Source: Vulcanimicrobiota bacterium
GTDB taxonomy: Bacteria; Vulcanimicrobiota; Xenobia; Xenobiales; JADMJV01
Assembly: GCA_019637395.1 (NCBI GenBank)
Contig: JAHBVR010000011.1
Coordinates: forward strand, 248,001-312,000
Direction: 5' to 3'
Length of the DNA: 64,000 nt
Part shown: piece by piece, positions 641 to 9,882 of the stretch
Layout of the letters: each line of letters begins with the position of its first letter
Numbering within the stretch: position 1 is the first letter of the stretch
Notes under the pieces: generated by a model
The model's input: only the letters and a program-made list of their open reading frames with translations
What the model was told of the DNA's origin: nothing
The model's database searches: none
Program-made: the position numbers and the translations under genes

Positions 641-1561
641 ATGAGCCACGACCGACTGTTCAAGAAACTCATCAGCCTCTACTTCTACGACTTCCTCGAG
701 CTCTTTGCTCCGACACTCTGGGAGCGCATCGTCCGTTCCCGCAGTCCCGTCTTTTTGGACAAGGAGAGCCTGGGGAAAATACCCGGACTCCGGCGCAGAG
801 AGAAAGACCTCGTAGTTCGGGTGCATCTTCTTGACGGCGACCAGGCGTCCATCATCGTCCATTTGGAGCACGAGGCCCAGAATCACCAGAATATGCCAGA
901 GAGAATGTTCATGTACTTCCGCCGTTTGCTCGAATTATATGACACGAACCAGATCTACCCGATCTGTGTTTTCTCTGCCCGAGCCAGGAAACCCCGGCCG
1001 ACCGAATACAATATCCGCTGCCACAACCTAAACACCGTAACCTTCCGCTACCACACCATTGAGCTGGCCCACCTGGACTGGCGGGCCTTCCTCAAAAAGC
1101 CCAACCCCGTGGCCAGTGCCCTGATGGCCCGAATGGCCATTCGAGCCGAAGACCGCCCTCGGGTCAAGGCCGAGTGCTTGCGTATGCTGGCCAATCTGAG
1201 GGTAGATTATGACAAGGCCGTAGTCATCGGCCATTTCGTGGAGAGCTACCTGAAGCTCAATGCTGAAGAAGTGAGGACATTTGAACGCATCCTGGAATTA
1301 CTACCTCAAGAAGAGAAGGAGACGGTTATGACCTACACCACCAGTTGGCACCGCGAGGGACGCAAAGAGGGGCGCAAAGAAGGTCGCCGCGAGGGCCGTA
1401 AAGAGGGGCATCTTGAGGGGCGCAAAGAGGCGAGCCGAGAGATCGCCCTCCGGATGCGCGCTTCGGGAGTAGACCTCCATACAATTGCAGACCTCACAGG
1501 CCTCACCATCTGCGAAATAGAGTCCCTCTCAGATGCTTGGAATGGAACTTGCCAGGGCTGA
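641..1561 (+). CDS. Rpn-family PD-(D/E)XK nuclease (transposase-like YhgA type)
   Basis: The 306-aa product resembles the Rpn/YhgA recombination-promoting nucleases, which nick DNA through a PD-(D/E)XK fold and are linked to RecA-independent recombination and phage defence. The likely active site is Asp56 (KDLVVRV) followed by LEHEAQ at 75-80, giving the D...ExQ pattern. Residues about 237-263 are a Gly-Arg-Lys-Glu tandem repeat, common in the tails of this family, followed by a short HTH-like segment (HTIADLTGLTICEIESL). It sits beside the convergent BrxD/helicase operon. The gene is preceded by a predicted leaderless -10. Family placement is by motif only; nuclease activity is inferred. Confidence 0.75.
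   Translation: MSHDRLFKKLISLYFYDFLELFAPTLWERIVRSRSPVFLDKESLGKIPGLRRREKDLVVRVHLLDGDQASIIVHLEHEAQNHQNMPERMFMYFRRLLELYDTNQIYPICVFSARARKPRPTEYNIRCHNLNTVTFRYHTIELAHLDWRAFLKKPNPVASALMARMAIRAEDRPRVKAECLRMLANLRVDYDKAVVIGHFVESYLKLNAEEVRTFERILELLPQEEKETVMTYTTSWHREGRKEGRKEGRREGRKEGHLEGRKEASREIALRMRASGVDLHTIADLTGLTICEIESLSDAWNGTCQG
1352..1430 (+). repeat. Imperfect 12-bp tandem repeat inside the Rpn gene
   Basis: The units read roughly GAGGGGCGCAAA and encode the repeated Glu-Gly-Arg-Lys tetrapeptide of the nuclease tail. Because the unit is a multiple of three, copy-number change keeps the frame, so the tail length can vary without breaking the gene. Confidence 0.7.
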
Positions 1562-1605
1562 TGGCTGTGTCGAGCCAACTGACGGATAATGTCTTATCTT
1601 AGCGC

Positions 1606-3153
1606 TTAAAGCTGGAAGAGGCTTTTCAGTTCAGCCTCGGAGAGGCTATGGCCCAGATCCATGCTGAGACCGTCGACCGTCTCTTCAAAGAGCTGGCGCT
1701 TGCCTTTCAGGATAGCCGAAATACGCTCTTCAATGGTGCCCAGGCAGACATAGCGAAAAGCCTCCACCGGGTAGGGCTGGCCCAGGCGGTGGGCGCGGCT
1801 GTCGGCTTGTTCCTCGATGGCCGGGTTCCACCAGCGGTCCAGGTGGAAAATGTAGGAAGCCGACTGGAGATTGAGTCCTACGCCGCCGGCCCGTAGCGAG
1901 AGCGCCAGCAGCTTGTGCCGGGGGTCTTGAAGAAAGCGTTGAGTGGCCTCGTTTCGCTGGGCGGCCGACATGGAACCCGTGTAGGCCAGCGGACGGTAAT
2001 CCTTGAGAAATCGGCAAACCAGCCCGACGCCAAATTGCTCATCGGTAAATTGGGAAAAGACCAGCGCCCGGTGTCCCTCGGCCACGAGAACCTCCATACG
2101 CCGGGCAATGTCTTGCAACTTGGCCGATTCGCCAGTGACGGGGTCATGATTGCAAAGTTGCTTGAGCCGGACGATCAGCTCCAGAATTTGCGTCACCCGC
2201 AAGGCCGGCCCCTGGGACTGCAACTGCACGATTCCCTGAGTTTCGGCTTCGTCGTAGGCTCGGCGTTGGCCCGGACCGAGTTCCACTTCGATCTCGCGCA
2301 CCCGACGGGGCGGCAATTGCGTCAAAACCTCCGACTTGCGCCGGCGCAATTGCACCTCCTGAAGCTTTTGCATGAGTTGCTGGCGGGAGCCAAAGCGCTG
2401 CGGAGCGCCGGCCAGGAACTCGAGCAACGAAACCACGTCCTCCAATCGATTCTCCAGCGGAGTTCCGGTCAGAGCCCAACGCCTCTGGCTGGTCACCCGC
2501 TTACAGGTCCGGGCCAGCGAAGTTTCCCGGTTCTTGATGCGCGAGGCCTCATCCAGCACTAAAACACCCCATCGCTCCCGGGCAATCAGCTGGAGGTCCG
2601 CGCGCAGGGTCTCATAACTGACCAGCTTCACGTGGGCCGGGCGGCGCCAGAGCGATTGCCGGGGAGCCGGACCGATCACCGGCACCACTCTTAGTTCGCT
2701 CCCCCAAATACGAAATTCCCGGGCCCATTGGCGCACCACCGCCGAAGGGCAAACGACCAGGGCGCTCTCGATTTGCCTGGTATGCAGTAGCAGGCGCAAA
2801 GCCCCTATGGTCTGCACGGTTTTGCCCAGTCCCATATCATCGGCCAGCAGCAACTGCTGGTTCTGGATCAGCGTGGAAATCCCCAACTGCTGGTAGGGCA
2901 GCAGGGGAAAGGGCCATTCCAGCACGCCGCTCTCCAAATCCAGATAGATGGGCGCCTGCAAGGCCGACATCAGGCGTTTGAGCAGGTCATCGTTCATCCC
3001 TGATAGGGGACTGGCCTCACTCGCTTCCTGGCTGGCTCCGTCACCGGAGCCCGGGCGCAGCAGGGTGACCGAGAGCGCTCTGCTCAGAGCCAGCCCCCGG
3101 GCTTCCAGGACGGCGGGCTCATCCGGTAGCAACTCCGGCACCGGCCATCTCAT
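1606..3153 (-). CDS. SNF2-family DEAD/DEAH helicase (BrxHI-like position)
   Basis: This 515-aa superfamily 2 ATPase carries all core SNF2 motifs: Walker A DDMGLGKT (about 105-112), the DEAS box (about 201-204), TGTPLENR (about 229-236), and in the second lobe GGVGLNLQ, the DRWWNP motif and AHRLGQ. Such proteins translocate on or remodel DNA-protein complexes using ATP. It is short for the family because the N-terminal region before motif I is only about 100 residues. It is the last gene of a five-gene overlapping operon; its ATG overlaps the upstream stop (ATGA). A BrxD-like ATPase two genes upstream mirrors the brxD-brxHI pair of some BREX loci, so a nucleic-acid role in defence is inferred. 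Confidence 0.88.
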   Translation of the reverse strand: MRWPVPELLPDEPAVLEARGLALSRALSVTLLRPGSGDGASQEASEASPLSGMNDDLLKRLMSALQAPIYLDLESGVLEWPFPLLPYQQLGISTLIQNQQLLLADDMGLGKTVQTIGALRLLLHTRQIESALVVCPSAVVRQWAREFRIWGSELRVVPVIGPAPRQSLWRRPAHVKLVSYETLRADLQLIARERWGVLVLDEASRIKNRETSLARTCKRVTSQRRWALTGTPLENRLEDVVSLLEFLAGAPQRFGSRQQLMQKLQEVQLRRRKSEVLTQLPPRRVREIEVELGPGQRRAYDEAETQGIVQLQSQGPALRVTQILELIVRLKQLCNHDPVTGESAKLQDIARRMEVLVAEGHRALVFSQFTDEQFGVGLVCRFLKDYRPLAYTGSMSAAQRNEATQRFLQDPRHKLLALSLRAGGVGLNLQSASYIFHLDRWWNPAIEEQADSRAHRLGQPYPVEAFRYVCLGTIEERISAILKGKRQLFEETVDGLSMDLGHSLSEAELKSLFQL

Positions 3154-3692: not shown

Positions 3693-4863
3693 CAATCGGT
3701 GTCGAATCGAAGCTCAGCTCTTCTATCTTCACCTGGGGAGACTGGTCGGGATAAAAGCGGTGCAGATCCCACTGGGTGACCCAGCGCCGAATGCGTTGGC
3801 GGATGGGAGTGCTGCCTTCATAGTAATCATCCTGGTAATCCGGAGCGACCAGCTGGTAGGCTTCTTCATAGAGCGCTTTGATGCGGTAGCGAACCGATTC
3901 GATTTCGCTGCGGTCGGGATCGATCAGGCGCAGATTGCCTTTGAGCATGGAGACTCCGGCTTGGGCCAGCCGATCCCGATCATCTTGCGCCAGCAGAAAG
4001 CCACTGGCTTCATCGGGCAACACACAGGTGTTGACGAAGCTGGAGGTCATGGCAAAGACAGGTAAGACGCCGCTGCCGGGTTGGCTGGCCAGTTGGGACC
4101 ACCAGCCCAGTTGCTCGTAAGCAGCCAGGCGCTGCTTTTTGGAAAACTGGGCCATGCGCTCCAGTTCATCCACCAGCACCACCACCCCGCCCAGGCCGCC
4201 GGCGCGCAACAGCCTGGCAAAAAGCTGAATGCGTTGCTGGGCCAGCGGAGCCACTCGCGGGGTATTTCTCAAATCGTAGCTGGAAGCGGCGCCGATTTCC
4301 TTGAGTTTTTGTTGGATCAAAGTTTTGAGCAGAGGCTTGCCTTCGAAGTCGCCCAAAATTTGGAAGCGAAGCTCGGGATCGGACACGAACTCCGTGTAGA
4401 GATGAAGAAGGGCGCGGAATCGATCGTGGATATCGGGCGACTCCGCCAGCCATTCACGTACGGACAGAAAGTGATCGGCACGGGGCGGCAGATCGCTGTA
4501 GAGGGTGCGCAGGGCTTTGCCCAGGCGTCCGGGAGCGCGGGCGTTCTCACTCAAGGCTTTGAGCACCACCGGGGCATTGCCGAGCGGCATTTCCGGACTG
4601 ACCACCAGGTAACTGGAGGCAAAATTGCGTTCTTCCGCCAGTGCCTGCAAATATTCCAGCAAATGGGTCTTGCCCGAGCCGAAGTTGGCGCTGATGACCA
4701 GCGGCTTACAGGGCGCTCCGCGTTCTAGCTCCTCCAGAGCGGTTTCAAAGGAAGCTTTGATTTCCGTCTGGGTGGTTCCCAACTGGGCCACGGCGTGCCG
4801 GCTGGGAACGCCGGAGCGCAAGCCCTCGATGGCGGCCCGGGCGCGCATCTGATCGGCGGTCAC
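3664..4863 (-). CDS. BrxD-like ATPase (DUF2791 family)
   Basis: The 399-aa product matches the DUF2791/BrxD AAA-type ATPases found in BREX and related conflict systems. It shows the family's N-terminal region (RARAAIEGLRSGVPSRHAV), a Walker A ANFGSGKTH at about 59-67 and a Walker B VVVLVDELERM at about 227-237. It starts with GTG, overlapping the upstream stop as GTGA. In BREX types that carry it, BrxD sits next to a helicase, as here. No PglX methylase, PglZ phosphatase or BrxC lies in the window, so this is a BREX-related but distinct arrangement. ATPase activity is well supported by motifs; the biological role is inferred. Confidence 0.82.
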   Translation of the reverse strand: MTADQMRARAAIEGLRSGVPSRHAVAQLGTTQTEIKASFETALEELERGAPCKPLVISANFGSGKTHLLEYLQALAEERNFASSYLVVSPEMPLGNAPVVLKALSENARAPGRLGKALRTLYSDLPPRADHFLSVREWLAESPDIHDRFRALLHLYTEFVSDPELRFQILGDFEGKPLLKTLIQQKLKEIGAASSYDLRNTPRVAPLAQQRIQLFARLLRAGGLGGVVVLVDELERMAQFSKKQRLAAYEQLGWWSQLASQPGSGVLPVFAMTSSFVNTCVLPDEASGFLLAQDDRDRLAQAGVSMLKGNLRLIDPDRSEIESVRYRIKALYEEAYQLVAPDYQDDYYEGSTPIRQRIRRWVTQWDLHRFYPDQSPQVKIEELSFDSTPIDDSELAQDG

Positions 4864-5954
4864 AGCGCACCTGCCAGATGTACCAGAGCGGCGCTGGGAT
4901 TGGCCTGGTTCGCTCCCCGCACTTCCAGCCCGATACGGGTTTGCAGAGCATCGTAATTGTGGTAGTTGCGCGGGCTACCCAGATCATAAAAGGATCGGCT
5001 GGTCAGCACCACCAGCAAGAACCGCTCGAAGCTATCGATCTCATCGATAAAGCGACGGAGCAGAGCGAGCATATTTTGATAAGCCAGGTCGGTGTAGTAG
5101 AGGCCGGTCGGATCGGGAGCGTGCAGGACGGCATTTAACTCGTCCTTGCCCAGGCCGGCCTCGATCGCCTCATTGAGGCTCAGCATCTTCTGTTCGCGGA
5201 GTTGGGCGGCAGTCGGCTTCTTGCCTTCATAAGGCCGCAGATCCAAAGTAACCACCAGGCCCGGATGGCCCAATTGAGGGAGCCAATGACAGAAAGAGGC
5301 GAGCATGGCCCGGGCATTCGACTGCGAGATGCGCTCGTAAATCTGAATCTTCTTCAGGGCGGTGGCGCCTCCCGGCCTGGTCTGACCGGCAAACCAGGCC
5401 AGCAATACCTCCTCGATGTTCGGACTGTTGGCGTCGGGCATCAGTTGAGCCCGCCCCAAGGCCGTCACCGCCGTGCGGAATTCTCGCGCCATTCCGTGGT
5501 CTCGGAGTTGCGGAGTGGCCAGCTCGGCCTGGTATTGATGCATCAAGTCGGCCGGGTCTCTACTGTTGTCGCCGGCGATCGCTTCCAGATCGTTGAGGGC
5601 TCTGTCCGGACCGATGCGCACTCCCCGCGATTCCAGATGGCGCCGGACCTGGATGGCCGACCAGGCTTTGTAGTCCACTGCCCGCGTGCATTCGAAAAAG
5701 AAGCGATCCATGCGGTGGAGATCCTTCTTCTTGCCGCTTTCCTCCAACTCGGCCGGGTCGAGGTGGGCATGCCAGAATCCGCTTTGCTGAGCCTGCTCGG
5801 CGAGACGCTGGCGGACCCGTGCCAGCACCTCTTCGCTTCCGCTGACCACCTTGACGGCCGACCCTCCGGCGGCCACAAACTGATTCAGATAGTCGTCTAG
5901 AAGAATCTTCAGCCAGGCGTCCACCGGTATTTCCTGGTTGGAGACAGCAGCCAT
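4860..5954 (-). CDS. BrxD-like protein lacking a P-loop, 364 aa
   Basis: The start is the ATG at 5954, whose A is shared with the upstream stop (TGATG); the longer frame to 6242 lies inside the upstream gene and is discarded. The C-terminal part looks like the DUF2791 fold, with a hydrophobic strand LLVVLTSRSFYD and an ending rich in NPSAALVHL-type residues. The position expected for Walker A reads VVSGSEEVLARV (about 37-48), with no GxxGxGK[ST]. I infer a catalytically dead or regulatory paralogue of the next gene's ATPase, perhaps forming a heterocomplex. Remote homology is my judgement from pattern and needs profile comparison. Confidence 0.6.
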   Translation of the reverse strand: MAAVSNQEIPVDAWLKILLDDYLNQFVAAGGSAVKVVSGSEEVLARVRQRLAEQAQQSGFWHAHLDPAELEESGKKKDLHRMDRFFFECTRAVDYKAWSAIQVRRHLESRGVRIGPDRALNDLEAIAGDNSRDPADLMHQYQAELATPQLRDHGMAREFRTAVTALGRAQLMPDANSPNIEEVLLAWFAGQTRPGGATALKKIQIYERISQSNARAMLASFCHWLPQLGHPGLVVTLDLRPYEGKKPTAAQLREQKMLSLNEAIEAGLGKDELNAVLHAPDPTGLYYTDLAYQNMLALLRRFIDEIDSFERFLLVVLTSRSFYDLGSPRNYHNYDALQTRIGLEVRGANQANPSAALVHLAGAL

Positions 5955-6724
5955 CAGCGAAATTCGATGCCGTAGTAGCGCACGGGTTGGCCGTCTTCTC
6001 GATAAACCGTAAAGACATCCCGTTCTTTGACCTTGGCCGAGGGATGTTCCAGATGAAAGCGTTTCCCCGAGCGGGTCAGACGGACCTCGGAACGGGCCAG
6101 GGCATAGATATCCTGGCCGAACTGGGCCGGGCTGTTTTCCTTCTTCCAGCCGGGAGCGGCCGCGAAGCGCTCGTAGATCTCCTGGAAAGTGGCCACGGTG
6201 GCTCCATTTTTGGTCAGATCTTGCCAGGCCAGGTAAAGACATTCAAGAAATTCCTGAGGGCCGGAAACCGACTTCTTGTCCCGCAGGCGCTTCAGCTCCG
6301 CGGCCACCGCACGCGGGTGAAGCTTGGACCAGGCGTTCTTGCCGATCTTCAAACGGGAACCGCTCGGCTGGCTGCGCACCAGCACCGGCGACGAGACCAA
6401 CGTCTCACCATCGATGATCACCTTGACCCCGAGGCTGTCGGCGGCGGCCTGCACGTCCTCCCGCCAGCGACCGCTTTCCAGGTAAGCGCGCGAGTCAAAT
6501 TCCCATGAGCTGCTGGCCTCCTGAGCGCGCTCCAGCGAAAGGGGCAGCAATTCTTCCACTTTGGACTGGGCTCGCTGGCGCGCCCCCACGTCGCCCTCCA
6601 CGCAGGCCTTCTTCCAGGCACTTACGGCTTTGGTCAGACGCTGGCAAACAGCTTTCAAATCATCGACCCGGGATTCATGAACCTGCAGGGCCTCTTCCAG
6701 GGATTCAAGTTTCGTCTCTAACAT
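5954..6724 (-). CDS. Coiled-coil hypothetical protein, first gene of the BrxD-like operon
   Basis: I chose the ATG at 6724 (256 aa); a TTG at 6772 overlapping the hepT stop would add 16 residues. Residues 1-70 are a Leu/Glu/Lys heptad-like helix (LETKLESLEEALQVHESRV), followed by a charged globular region and a C-terminal domain with short strands (KRFHLEHPSAKVKERDVF). No catalytic motif is visible. It is coupled to the next gene by a one-base TGATG overlap. The role may be DNA or partner recognition for the ATPases; this is inference. Confidence 0.65.
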   Translation of the reverse strand: MLETKLESLEEALQVHESRVDDLKAVCQRLTKAVSAWKKACVEGDVGARQRAQSKVEELLPLSLERAQEASSSWEFDSRAYLESGRWREDVQAAADSLGVKVIIDGETLVSSPVLVRSQPSGSRLKIGKNAWSKLHPRAVAAELKRLRDKKSVSGPQEFLECLYLAWQDLTKNGATVATFQEIYERFAAAPGWKKENSPAQFGQDIYALARSEVRLTRSGKRFHLEHPSAKVKERDVFTVYREDGQPVRYYGIEFR

Positions 6725-6768: not shown

Positions 6769-7215
6769 TCAATCAAGAAAGTTCTGAATCTCCCGGGCGA
6801 AGAGCCGAAAGTCGTCCAGATGGGTCTGAAGGATTTGGTGGACTACAGCATAGTCCACATTCCAGTAGCGATGCACCAACAGGTTGCGAAAACGGCTCAT
6901 CTGCCCGAGCCGTTCCACCAGACCTGAGGACTTGAGAATATCCTTTTGAAACAAGCACTCGAAACTGTCCGCCATGCCTTTGGGAACCGGATGATTCAGG
7001 GAAGCCAGCAGGTGGCTGGCGATGCCGGCGATGGCTTCGATGCTGATGGTCAAAGCGTAGGCGGCACTGTAGGTCGCTTCTTTGCTGCGCAAAAACTGGT
7101 CGGCGGGCCTTTGCGACAGTTGCTGAAGAAAAAGCAGGTTCTCTTCGAGAGAAGCCAGACTTTCGTCGATAAAATCTCGGTCAGGAGGCAAAGCGACCGC
7201 TCCGGATTCTGGCAT
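6769..7215 (-). CDS. hepT: HepT-like HEPN toxin (DUF86 family)
   Basis: The 148-aa all-helical protein has the HEPN RNase signature R-x4-H followed by the x-Y extension: Arg110-NLLV-His115-Arg-Tyr117. HepT toxins cleave RNA, and the tyrosine two residues after the histidine is the one modified by the partner MntA in characterised type VII systems. It overlaps the mntA end by 35 bp, the usual antitoxin-first order. Length and motif match the family. The toxin lies directly upstream of, and in the same direction as, the BrxD-like operon, with a TTGA overlap or 45-bp gap to it depending on the start used, so it may share a transcript. Confidence 0.88.
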   Translation of the reverse strand: MPESGAVALPPDRDFIDESLASLEENLLFLQQLSQRPADQFLRSKEATYSAAYALTISIEAIAGIASHLLASLNHPVPKGMADSFECLFQKDILKSSGLVERLGQMSRFRNLLVHRYWNVDYAVVHQILQTHLDDFRLFAREIQNFLD

Positions 7216-7609
7216 GCATGGCCTCGCGGATGGGTTTCAGGAAATACTCTCGGTCCCGCTCTTCGCTGATCGAAGCGGCATGAAATCGCGCCAACTGATT
7301 GGTGTCCAGGCACACCAGTAACCTCCCATTCTCGATGACTCGCCAGCGAAAGAGGGGGGGGGCGCCACGCAAATCTTGCAGATCGATCTGGAACTCTTCG
7401 GATTCGTAAAGTTCCGCCAGCAAAGGGAGAAGACGATTCACAGCCGGAGGGGCCAGGGCAGCGTGAGCCAGCAAGAATGCGAAGTCCAAATCGCTCTCCG
7501 AGTTGCGCCGGCCGTGAACCTGGGAGCCGTGGGCATAGAGCGCCACTACCCCAACCGAAGCACAAGCTTCGGTCAGGCGCGCCTGTTCTTCTCTTGCCAG
7601 ACTCTTCAT
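7181..7609 (-). CDS. mntA: MntA-like minimal nucleotidyltransferase antitoxin
   Basis: This 142-aa protein has the polymerase-beta nucleotidyltransferase signature GS-x10-DxD: Gly28-Ser29 and Asp40-Leu-Asp42. In MntA-HepT systems the enzyme neutralises the toxin by adding AMP units to the HEPN tyrosine, which is present in the neighbour. The antitoxin gene comes first and overlaps the toxin, favouring tight stoichiometry. A hairpin (7611-7631) abuts its start codon and there is no clear Shine-Dalgarno sequence. Confidence 0.87.
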   Translation of the reverse strand: MKSLAREEQARLTEACASVGVVALYAHGSQVHGRRNSESDLDFAFLLAHAALAPPAVNRLLPLLAELYESEEFQIDLQDLRGAPPLFRWRVIENGRLLVCLDTNQLARFHAASISEERDREYFLKPIREAMHARIRSGRFAS

Positions 7610-7654: not shown

Positions 7655-8437
7655 CTAATCGCCGAAGACGGCGGCGGACTCCTTGACCACCCGGGGGTCG
7701 GTGTATTCGATCATCTCGCCGTTCCACTCGGGCGGGCAGTAGAGGGCCAGCCAGGCCATGGACTTGGCCGGCACCTCGGGGGGTTCGAGCCGATTGGTCT
7801 CCTTGAGCTGCTGGAAGTATTGCAGCATATCGGGCGGCATGTGGCCCGGCCCGTCTTTGCGGATCTGGTCCTGCATGGCCGTGTCGATCACCCCGGGACG
7901 TAACGAGACAGCGATGATGCGAGGCTGCTCGACGGCCATGCAGCGGGTCAGGTGGTGCAGTCCGGCTTTGCTGGCGCAGTAAGCCGACCACGCGGCCAGC
8001 GGATGCACGGCCGCGCCGGTGCTGACGTTGACCACTTTGCCCTTGCTCTGCAGCAGCCAGGGCGAAGCCAGTCGAGCCAGATAGAGAGGTGCGACCAGGT
8101 TGATCTGCATGGCCCGCGACCAGGCTTCCATGTCGACGTTGGTGTAAATACCGATAGGATCAATAACGGCCGCGTTGTTGACAACCGCGTCGATGCGTCC
8201 CCATTTATCGCTGGCGGCGCTGACGATTTTCTGGCAGACTTCCAGATCGCCCACGTCCCCCGCCACGGCCAGGACCTCGGACCCGAGCTGCTGGCACTCT
8301 TGGCGGGCCTTCTCCAGCAACTCTCCGTTGCGGGCATTGAGGACCAGTTTGACCGACTTTTTGGCCAGCCAGTGGGCCGTAGCCGCGCCCAGTCCGCGCG
8401 AGGCTCCGGTGATGATGACGACACGTTTTTCACTCAT
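7655..8437 (-). CDS. SDR-family NAD(P)-dependent oxidoreductase
   Basis: This is a classical short-chain dehydrogenase/reductase of 260 aa. It has the cofactor motif TGASRGLG at 10-17, the NNAA motif at 87-90 and the catalytic Ser139, Tyr153 and Lys157 (YCASK). The basic Arg14 in the glycine motif and Arg36 after the second strand favour NADP. The substrate cannot be told from sequence; the C-terminal region resembles sepiapterin-reductase-like SDRs only loosely. It lies 45 bp upstream of mntA on the same strand, with a hairpin between them, so a shared transcript is uncertain. Confidence 0.9.
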   Translation of the reverse strand: MSEKRVVIITGASRGLGAATAHWLAKKSVKLVLNARNGELLEKARQECQQLGSEVLAVAGDVGDLEVCQKIVSAASDKWGRIDAVVNNAAVIDPIGIYTNVDMEAWSRAMQINLVAPLYLARLASPWLLQSKGKVVNVSTGAAVHPLAAWSAYCASKAGLHHLTRCMAVEQPRIIAVSLRPGVIDTAMQDQIRKDGPGHMPPDMLQYFQQLKETNRLEPPEVPAKSMAWLALYCPPEWNGEMIEYTDPRVVKESAAVFGD

Positions 8438-8550
8438 GGGCGGCGGCTTCGGTCCGGGCCCAGGGGCTTCCTGGAAAAAACGCGGGATAAATGTCTTCGG
8501 TAAAAGTTAAACTTGGCGTACTTCGGGGGAACCGACAGGCCGGCGCGGAA

Positions 8551-8556
8551 TAAAAT
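8551..8556 (+). promoter_or_regulatory. -10-like hexamer TAAAAT, predicted leaderless start
   Basis: TAAAAT ends exactly 6 nt before the ATG at 8563. This predicts a transcript with almost no leader for the RUS-like gene. No clear -35 is visible. Confidence 0.5.
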
Positions 8557-8562
8557 CGAGGC

Positions 8563-9882
8563 ATGAAAATCACCCAGTCGAGTGGCTCCAGCACCCCGGC
8601 CAACCGAGCCCCCCAGGCCAGCCAGCCGGACGTTCTCGCCTACGAAACGTCCCAGGATCAGGTGATCCTTTACGGGGGGGACGGCCGGCCGATGCCCGGC
8701 TCTGACAAGCTAAAGTCCAAAGGTGACAGCTTCATGAGAAATCTACTGTTACCGTCTAAAATGCCGGATTCGGTCAGCGCTGATTACGTTCCCAGCCGCC
8801 GCTGGAATTTCACGATGGAGTTGGCCGGCTCGGTGCAAAGCTACCTGGGCACGGCCGCCGCCCTCAACGCCGTCGGCATCGGCAACGGTCCTCTGACGGT
8901 GGGCCTGGCCTGGATGGTGCGCGATGCCATCGACGGGATCGGCAAATTCGCCGGCTCCCAGTTCGGCCGTCAGGCCGACAAAGATCCCAAAGGCTGGGTG
9001 ACTACCGGCGAGTATGTACACGCGGTCGGCTCCATGATGGAATCTACCCTGGCCGTCGCTCCAGGCGCTTTCCTGGCCATCGCACCGGCCGCTAACGCCG
9101 TTAAAGCCTTCGGCACCACCGTTAAAAGCGCGGCTCAGGCCCCCATCGAACTGCATCAGGCCCGCGACAACAACCTGGGCGAGATGCGCTCCAAAAACAA
9201 CAACCAGAACATGTTGGCCAGCATCATCGGAGCAGGTTTGGGCTTTGGCCTGGAAAAGCTCGGTTCCCACTACATCGGCTCGGCAGCCACTCCAGTGCTG
9301 ATGGCCGCGGCCACGGCCGGCAAACTCTTCGCCACTCACGGTTACGTGAAATCGCTGGATCTCGATCCGGTCACGGAAAAACGTATCAGCAAGCACGTCC
9401 ACAAGTGGCTCGATGTCGGCAAAGCCGACAAGGCCGAACTCAAAAAGCTCAAGCTGGGAGCGCCGCTCTCGGATTTCGTCAAAGATCCGGCGCGCTTCCG
9501 CCAACTCACCGAGATGTACGGCCCGCGCAACTACATGTTGGACGTGCAACAAGATAAAATCGCGGTCGTCCTGCATCAGGACAGCACCCCGGAAGACCAA
9601 TTGCAGGCCGTCACCCAGGCCAGCCTGATTCGCATTCTGCAGGGCAGCCCGCTCTACCAGGTCAAAATCGGCCAGGAAGGGGCCGCCGCCAAAGACTGGC
9701 TACTGCGCACCAGCCTGGGCGCCGTGCCCGATGTGGTGGCCAGTTTCGCCCGTGACGAAGATGACCCGCTGCGCTTCACTTCCGACGCGCGCCGCGCTCA
9801 CTGGGACAAAAGCCCGGGCGAGAACATCGCCCACGTCAGCAAGGCCGATTTTCAGAAGCTGACTCAGACCGTCAAAGGCTAG
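8563..9882 (+). CDS. RUS/DUF647-family protein (root UV-B sensitive-like)
   Basis: The region from about residue 57 to 245 matches the DUF647/RUS family known mainly from plants, animals and fungi. It has the family's opening block (LLLPSKMPDSVSADYVP), the repeated small-residue helices, WMVRDAIDGIGKF, the DPKGW motif and the later RDNNLGEM segment. Plant RUS1/RUS2 act in UV-B and vitamin B6 responses; the molecular activity is not settled. The 439-aa length is typical. The first 30 residues are Ser/Pro/Gln-rich and lack a signal peptide. The gene stands alone between convergent and divergent neighbours, so context adds nothing. Family call is by pattern recognition and is fairly confident. 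Confidence 0.75.
   Translation: MKITQSSGSSTPANRAPQASQPDVLAYETSQDQVILYGGDGRPMPGSDKLKSKGDSFMRNLLLPSKMPDSVSADYVPSRRWNFTMELAGSVQSYLGTAAALNAVGIGNGPLTVGLAWMVRDAIDGIGKFAGSQFGRQADKDPKGWVTTGEYVHAVGSMMESTLAVAPGAFLAIAPAANAVKAFGTTVKSAAQAPIELHQARDNNLGEMRSKNNNQNMLASIIGAGLGFGLEKLGSHYIGSAATPVLMAAATAGKLFATHGYVKSLDLDPVTEKRISKHVHKWLDVGKADKAELKKLKLGAPLSDFVKDPARFRQLTEMYGPRNYMLDVQQDKIAVVLHQDSTPEDQLQAVTQASLIRILQGSPLYQVKIGQEGAAAKDWLLRTSLGAVPDVVASFARDEDDPLRFTSDARRAHWDKSPGENIAHVSKADFQKLTQTVKG

Follow-up and report, generated by a model that had tools for sequence, protein, structure and literature searches.

An open reading frame at positions 8563-9882 of the stretch of DNA analysed here (the window, 64,000 nucleotides) raises two questions: whether the RUS/DUF647 family has a genuine bacterial branch, and what a bacterial RUS protein might do. 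DUF647 proteins are present in most animals, and to our knowledge they have no agreed molecular function. Excerpts from the literature describe the Arabidopsis DUF647 protein RUS6 as embryo-essential (PMC8146622), ascribe to CrRUS1 a transporter-like character and four transmembrane helices (PMC13115044), and propose for cotton RUS4 a likeness to half of melibiose permease, two such halves forming the transporter as a dimer (PMC10943365). A first-pass annotation of this DNA had called the family one described almost only from eukaryotes. This agrees with the available portions of five open-licence papers (PMC13115044, PMC8146622, PMC5059228, PMC10943365, PMC9966272), which describe eukaryotic members and name no bacterial one; Pfam and UniProt may contain some.

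Results

A bacterial RUS/DUF647 gene

The gene starts with ATG and consists of a single uninterrupted frame, the translation of which includes the strings MPDSVSADYVP, WMVRDAIDGIGKF and DPKGW (Table 1). The first-pass assignment to RUS/DUF647 was borne out by a Pfam profile search, in which two domains exceeded their cut-offs: PF04884 (UVB_sens_prot; E 9.3e-39, 133.9 bits against a cut-off of 28.3) and PF24160 (Root UVB sensitive C-terminal; E 8.5e-11, 42.9 bits against 20.7), the second match covering 71 of 156 profile positions. NCBIfam returned no significant family for the protein (best E 3.1). By sequence, its sole solved relative is human RUSF1 (9sdh_A), which aligns over aa 56-362 with an E value of 2e-26. 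Both the Pfam and the RUSF1 matches lie far beyond what chance would give. Measured against three orthologues, dN/dS is 0.085, 0.092 and 0.129, low values which indicate that the protein is kept by purifying selection. Judged by its sequence, the locus almost certainly encodes a genuine bacterial RUS/DUF647 protein.

Table 1. The RUS gene of the window, its conserved elements and its upstream neighbour.
Feature	Position	Strand	Basis
Short-chain dehydrogenase (SDR), divergent from RUS gene	7655..8437	-	Neighbour comparison, 4/4 genus orthologues
125-bp intergenic region between divergent SDR and RUS genes	8438..8562		Alignment of 4 genus loci
RUS/DUF647 family gene, 439 aa	8563..9882	+	ORF, both Pfam domains, human RUSF1 alignment; purifying selection
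PF04884 (DUF647) domain, aa 56-284; modelled as a bundle of six helices resembling an MFS half	8728..9414	+	Pfam, model, fold match
Conserved loop between helices 2 and 3, aa 133-145 (QFGRQADKDPKGW), presumed place of MFS motif A; contains K143 (8989-8991)	8959..8997	+	Alignment, model
E160, counterpart of AtRUS1 E298 by spacing	9040..9042	+	Spacing, alignment
Conserved loop between helices 4 and 5, aa 191-213; contains N204 (9172-9174) and K211 (9193-9195)	9133..9201	+	Alignment, model
PF24160 (RUS C-terminal) domain, aa 295-364, inside predicted helix/strand region	9445..9654	+	Pfam, model

Distribution and origin of the family

The window covers positions 248001-312000 of a 328,075-base contig, one of 36 in a 7.66-Mb genome (G000) with three RUS paralogues; its phylum, Ca. 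Eremiobacterota, is now named Vulcanimicrobiota according to our taxonomy check. The class is probably Xenobia, a name present in the taxonomy, to which SZAS-1-like genomes belong. PF04884 exceeded its cut-off in 10 of 149 genomes of the phylum, and in 5 of the 85 better-quality ones. A search of 388 relatives, which should include those 149, returned the same 10 matches and no further ones; by subtraction, and assuming that all 149 were drawn, roughly 239 out-of-phylum genomes are without a PF04884 match. Among further samples, which may overlap in a few genomes, none of 291 genomes exceeded the PF04884 cut-off (one match, L039, fell below it), nor did any in a set of 40, and profile A1 matched none of 398 genomes and one of another 395 (L124, an MFS protein, E 3.9e-4). 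All 14 control genomes were empty for RUS in Pfam searches. We rejected mobile or viral carriage of RUS, since tblastn searches of 72,556 plasmid and 50,697 phage records came back empty and three scans of viral contigs gave no confirmed relative.

Carriers often hold several copies. Across 18 chosen genomes (10 carriers and 8 non-carriers), profile A5 counted six copies in G136, five each in G137 and G138 (one of the G138 matches being a fragment at a contig edge), four in G135, three each in G000, G140 and G133, two each in G009 and G134 (the G134 pair looks like one split gene), one in G139 and none in any of the 8 non-carriers. G009, a small-genome member of the phylum, encodes a 1129-aa protein (L058:6427-9816, minus strand) whose C-terminal aa 697-1122 are a divergent RUS domain.

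We built a tree from 29 bacterial rows and the human stretch, leaving out L018, L058, the G136:C77 copy and the fragments of G134:C310 and G138:C451. The window copy and its three genus orthologues join L007, from another family of the same order, and L011, from another family of the same class, with support 95/91. The window's RUS subfamily is thus, on this tree, old within its class, because it spans one class. Other deep subfamilies (L012, L016 and L024 of G133) also reach class level, which suggests that the class ancestor probably had several RUS copies, some of which were lost in family f3 and in other places. The human row, the single eukaryotic sequence in the tree, is a long tip on a weakly supported branch (68/20). 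Human RUSF1 is 28% identical to the window protein over the aligned part and is thereby nearer to it than are the window genome's own paralogues L002 and L003, at 26% and 18%. Bacterial paralogues are therefore as distant from each other as from the human protein, which argues that the bacterial family is deep.

These results bear on where the gene came from. That the literature excerpts describe the family in eukaryotes only could be read as a sign of eukaryotic contamination or of a recent transfer from a eukaryote, and a tree showing such contamination had been named as grounds for discarding the bacterial reading. Instead, the uninterrupted gene lies in a 328-kb bacterial contig among bacterial neighbours, its GC content (0.614) equals that of the window (0.614), and it has orthologues in three other genomes of the genus and groups with relatives from its class. 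We rejected this explanation, which contig, neighbours, GC and tree together make extremely improbable; the annotated bacterial copy stands. An ancient transfer from a eukaryote to the class ancestor, followed by expansion of paralogues, is a different matter, compatible with any mechanism, and we regard it as a real possibility on the lower side of even. The family's narrow range in bacteria, confined over cut-off to 10 of the 149 phylum genomes and to none in the outside samples, and its wide range in eukaryotes as the available text describes it (PMC13115044, PMC8146622, PMC5059228) speak for such a transfer, and the depth of divergence among bacterial paralogues speaks against it. A bolder proposal gives RUS a bacterial beginning as an MFS transporter of half size, with an ancient set of diverged halves that this lineage keeps and uses in mixed pairs, and derives eukaryotic RUS from one of its subfamilies; it seems unlikely to us. 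Of the first-pass choice between an old family member and an acquired gene, the former holds within the class.

A predicted fold resembling half an MFS transporter

AlphaFold2 models of the window protein (pLDDT 79.6, pTM 0.67) and of paralogue L003 (pLDDT 84.7, pTM 0.74) both predict a long-helix bundle followed by a helix/strand C-terminal region, the bundle of the window protein having about six membrane-length helices (aa 75-264). VIA-align, run on Foldseek's candidates, placed NorC first for the window model (Z 17.5, 192 residues, 3.4 A) and SLC19A2 first for L003 (Z 15.8, 179 residues, 3.2 A), on a scale on which a Z of 14 can arise for helical models. The best 50 matches of each model are MFS-fold transporters, judged by their titles, and the matches listed align about 175-210 residues, about half an MFS chain. 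A full MFS transporter has 12 helices in a single chain. The modelled window protein has one helix bundle rather than two halves in one chain, and the predicted RUS models match one six-helix half of MFS transporters such as NorC, LacY, SLC19 and MelB. Foldseek itself gave no match for the window model at E<=0.001 (best 6.4e-3, TM about 0.3); 9sdh was not among the fold matches listed for either model, drawn from a library to April 2026 that may omit it. In the window protein, lysine and arginine occur in loops 2-3 and 4-5 as well as behind helix 6, with none in loops 1-2, 3-4 and 5-6. This charge distribution would put the two positively charged loops, together with the C-terminal domain, on the cytosolic side. 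Hydropathy of the helices is low (mean 0.34-0.80).

In sequence, the window protein differs from MFS transporters in having no match to MFS_1 or any other Pfam MFS family up to E 10. Its loop ADKDPKGW (aa 138-145) falls at what we take to be the motif-A position of MFS proteins. When hhalign compared RUS with 24 MFS proteins from the window's own genome, it chose the motif-A register, weakly (E 0.0096, probability 4%); controls (RUS against reversed MFS, reversed RUS against MFS, and ABC permease and EamA comparisons) scored lower. We take this as only suggestive of homology. When RUS profiles were run by hmmsearch against 26 MFS, 26 reversed and 22 control proteins, the preselected L124 alone was set apart, and own-genome MFS proteins were not separated from controls. 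Both marginal out-of-phylum matches, L039 and L124, are MFS proteins by Pfam. L039 matches PF04884 itself (E 9e-4, under cut-off), and the E value of L124 becomes about 0.15 after correction because this protein was picked from 395 genomes. L124, from a genome outside the phylum, is an MFS transporter fused to a NUDIX domain (766-2454, plus strand). Models and sequences together make descent of RUS from an MFS half likely but not proven.

A candidate pairing face

Eleven columns are invariant in 12 bacterial rows and human RUSF1: P64, D74, Y75, W81, W145, Q199, A200, N204, K211, Q215 and G223. In Arabidopsis, AtRUS1 reportedly no longer binds RUS2 when it carries K281G or K349G, and binds it more weakly with E298G or N342G (PMC10943365, citing Leasure et al. 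2009). We placed the counterparts in the window protein by spacing and by the human alignment, and the offsets of K143/E160/N204/K211 (0, 17, 61, 68) equal those of AtRUS1 K281/E298/N342/K349 exactly. This spacing pattern of K/E/N/K occurs at one site in the window protein, at none of 77,105 control positions and in 30 of 20,000 protein shuffles. Human RUSF1 (C16orf58) also has KENK at the corresponding positions and differs from the window protein in being eukaryotic and in having Q at R79, A at P142 and S at N214 (window numbering). The Arabidopsis RUS1-RUS6 and cotton RUS4 proteins share DUF647 and the C-terminal region, as well as the spacing of the four residues reported for RUS1-RUS2 binding, and differ in their plastid location and plant phenotypes.

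The four residues are not kept throughout the bacterial family. The pattern [KR][ED]NK is present in 15 of 29 bacterial rows, seven of these being exactly KENK; the other 14 have KQAI (four, among them L003), RGNA (two) or one or more changes (eight). Such loss argues against a uniform pairing rule, and the paralogues may differ in their partners.

Gene neighbourhood

The first-pass annotation had also predicted a leaderless promoter, which we could not uphold. The TAAAAT that lies 6 nt ahead of the RUS ATG in the window is absent from its orthologues in the four aligned loci, and a promoter scan of the window reported nothing ahead of the RUS gene. At positions 8526-8562, upstream of the RUS start, GGGGGAA-like and GGAAT blocks are common to the four genus loci.

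A divergent SDR gene adjoins the RUS gene, at a spacing of about 75-125 bp, in the window and in L035, L036 and L037, and is absent next to the RUS relative in L038. An MFS gene on the other side is common to the window and L035 only. The best solved relatives of the SDR are the ketoreductase 6yc8 and yeast YIR035C (3kzv); one of the 224 models that it matches is pyridoxal 4-dehydrogenase, at 101.9 bits against a cut-off of 325. No B6 gene was found among the searched RUS neighbours. We compared 20 stretches from carrier genomes with the window and L035-L038, using a crude longest-ORF gene call, and found no gene recurring beside all RUS paralogues, only scattered pairs and neighbours common within subfamilies of close relatives. 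An operon clue from these neighbourhoods was therefore ruled out, and the RUS neighbourhood gives no clear pathway. Elsewhere in the window, positions 6769-7609 (minus strand) encode a HepT toxin/MntA antitoxin pair (type VII), both above NCBIfam cut-offs, and positions 4860-6242 (minus strand) a protein that matches BrxC/BrxD (BREX ATPase) in part (PF10923 at 29.2 bits, far under the BrxD equivalog cut-off).

Discussion

We propose that RUS proteins have as their core a membrane bundle of six helices, equivalent to half an MFS transporter, and that such halves come together in pairs, of one protein or of two different paralogues, along the conserved polar face of K143, E160, N204 and K211. 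The paired halves would rebuild a whole MFS-like carrier, probably a transporter. We put the probability of this reading at roughly one half. It draws on the predicted models, two of which match an MFS half at 18% mutual identity; on the Arabidopsis RUS1-RUS2 data and the spacing of the four residues, shared with AtRUS1 and the human protein and kept as [KR][ED]NK in about half of the bacterial rows; on the restriction of positive charge to one set of loops; and on the two marginal out-of-phylum matches, both to MFS proteins. The PDB sequence file gives two chains for 9sdh, which is compatible with a dimer and is not proof of one. Against it stand the modest Foldseek score, the Z values that helical models can reach, the weak profile comparison with no Pfam MFS_1 match, the corrected value for L124 and the failure of RUS profiles to separate own-genome MFS proteins, the low helix hydropathy, and the loss of the four residues in the remaining rows.

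Some of the same observations would suit a protein of MFS-derived fold that has lost transport and acts through protein contacts as a membrane scaffold or regulator. The helices are of low hydropathy, only half an MFS protein is present, and DUF647 is treated as a protein-interaction domain in plant work, as excerpted (PMC8146622). We consider this tentative and somewhat unlikely, since polar residues so strongly conserved on a face within the membrane bundle fit a pathway, and the available part of the cotton RUS4 paper argues for transport (PMC10943365). A function linked to vitamin B6 (PLP) or an aminotransferase, as proposed for plant RUS1/RUS2, is suggested by the Pfam name of the domain and by the rescue of rus1/rus2 seedlings by B6 and by mutations in ASP2, described in the excerpted text (PMC8146622). 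With no B6 gene among the searched neighbours and the SDR far below the pyridoxal 4-dehydrogenase cut-off, we think it improbable.

The idea of a half-transporter fold that dimerises is already published for plants; the addition made here is the bacterial branch. The first-pass annotation saw in the gene a tractable model for function. This holds for the protein, which is small, has no introns and would be open to study in E. coli, and is doubtful on the host side, the four named genomes among the ten carriers being three MAGs and one 'isolate' record; we know of no cultured carrier of bacterial RUS. At about 440 aa, and with up to six paralogues per genome, bacterial RUS proteins offer simple proteins for expression, pairing and transport assays, and their paralogues provide naturally occurring versions with and without the supposed pairing residues.
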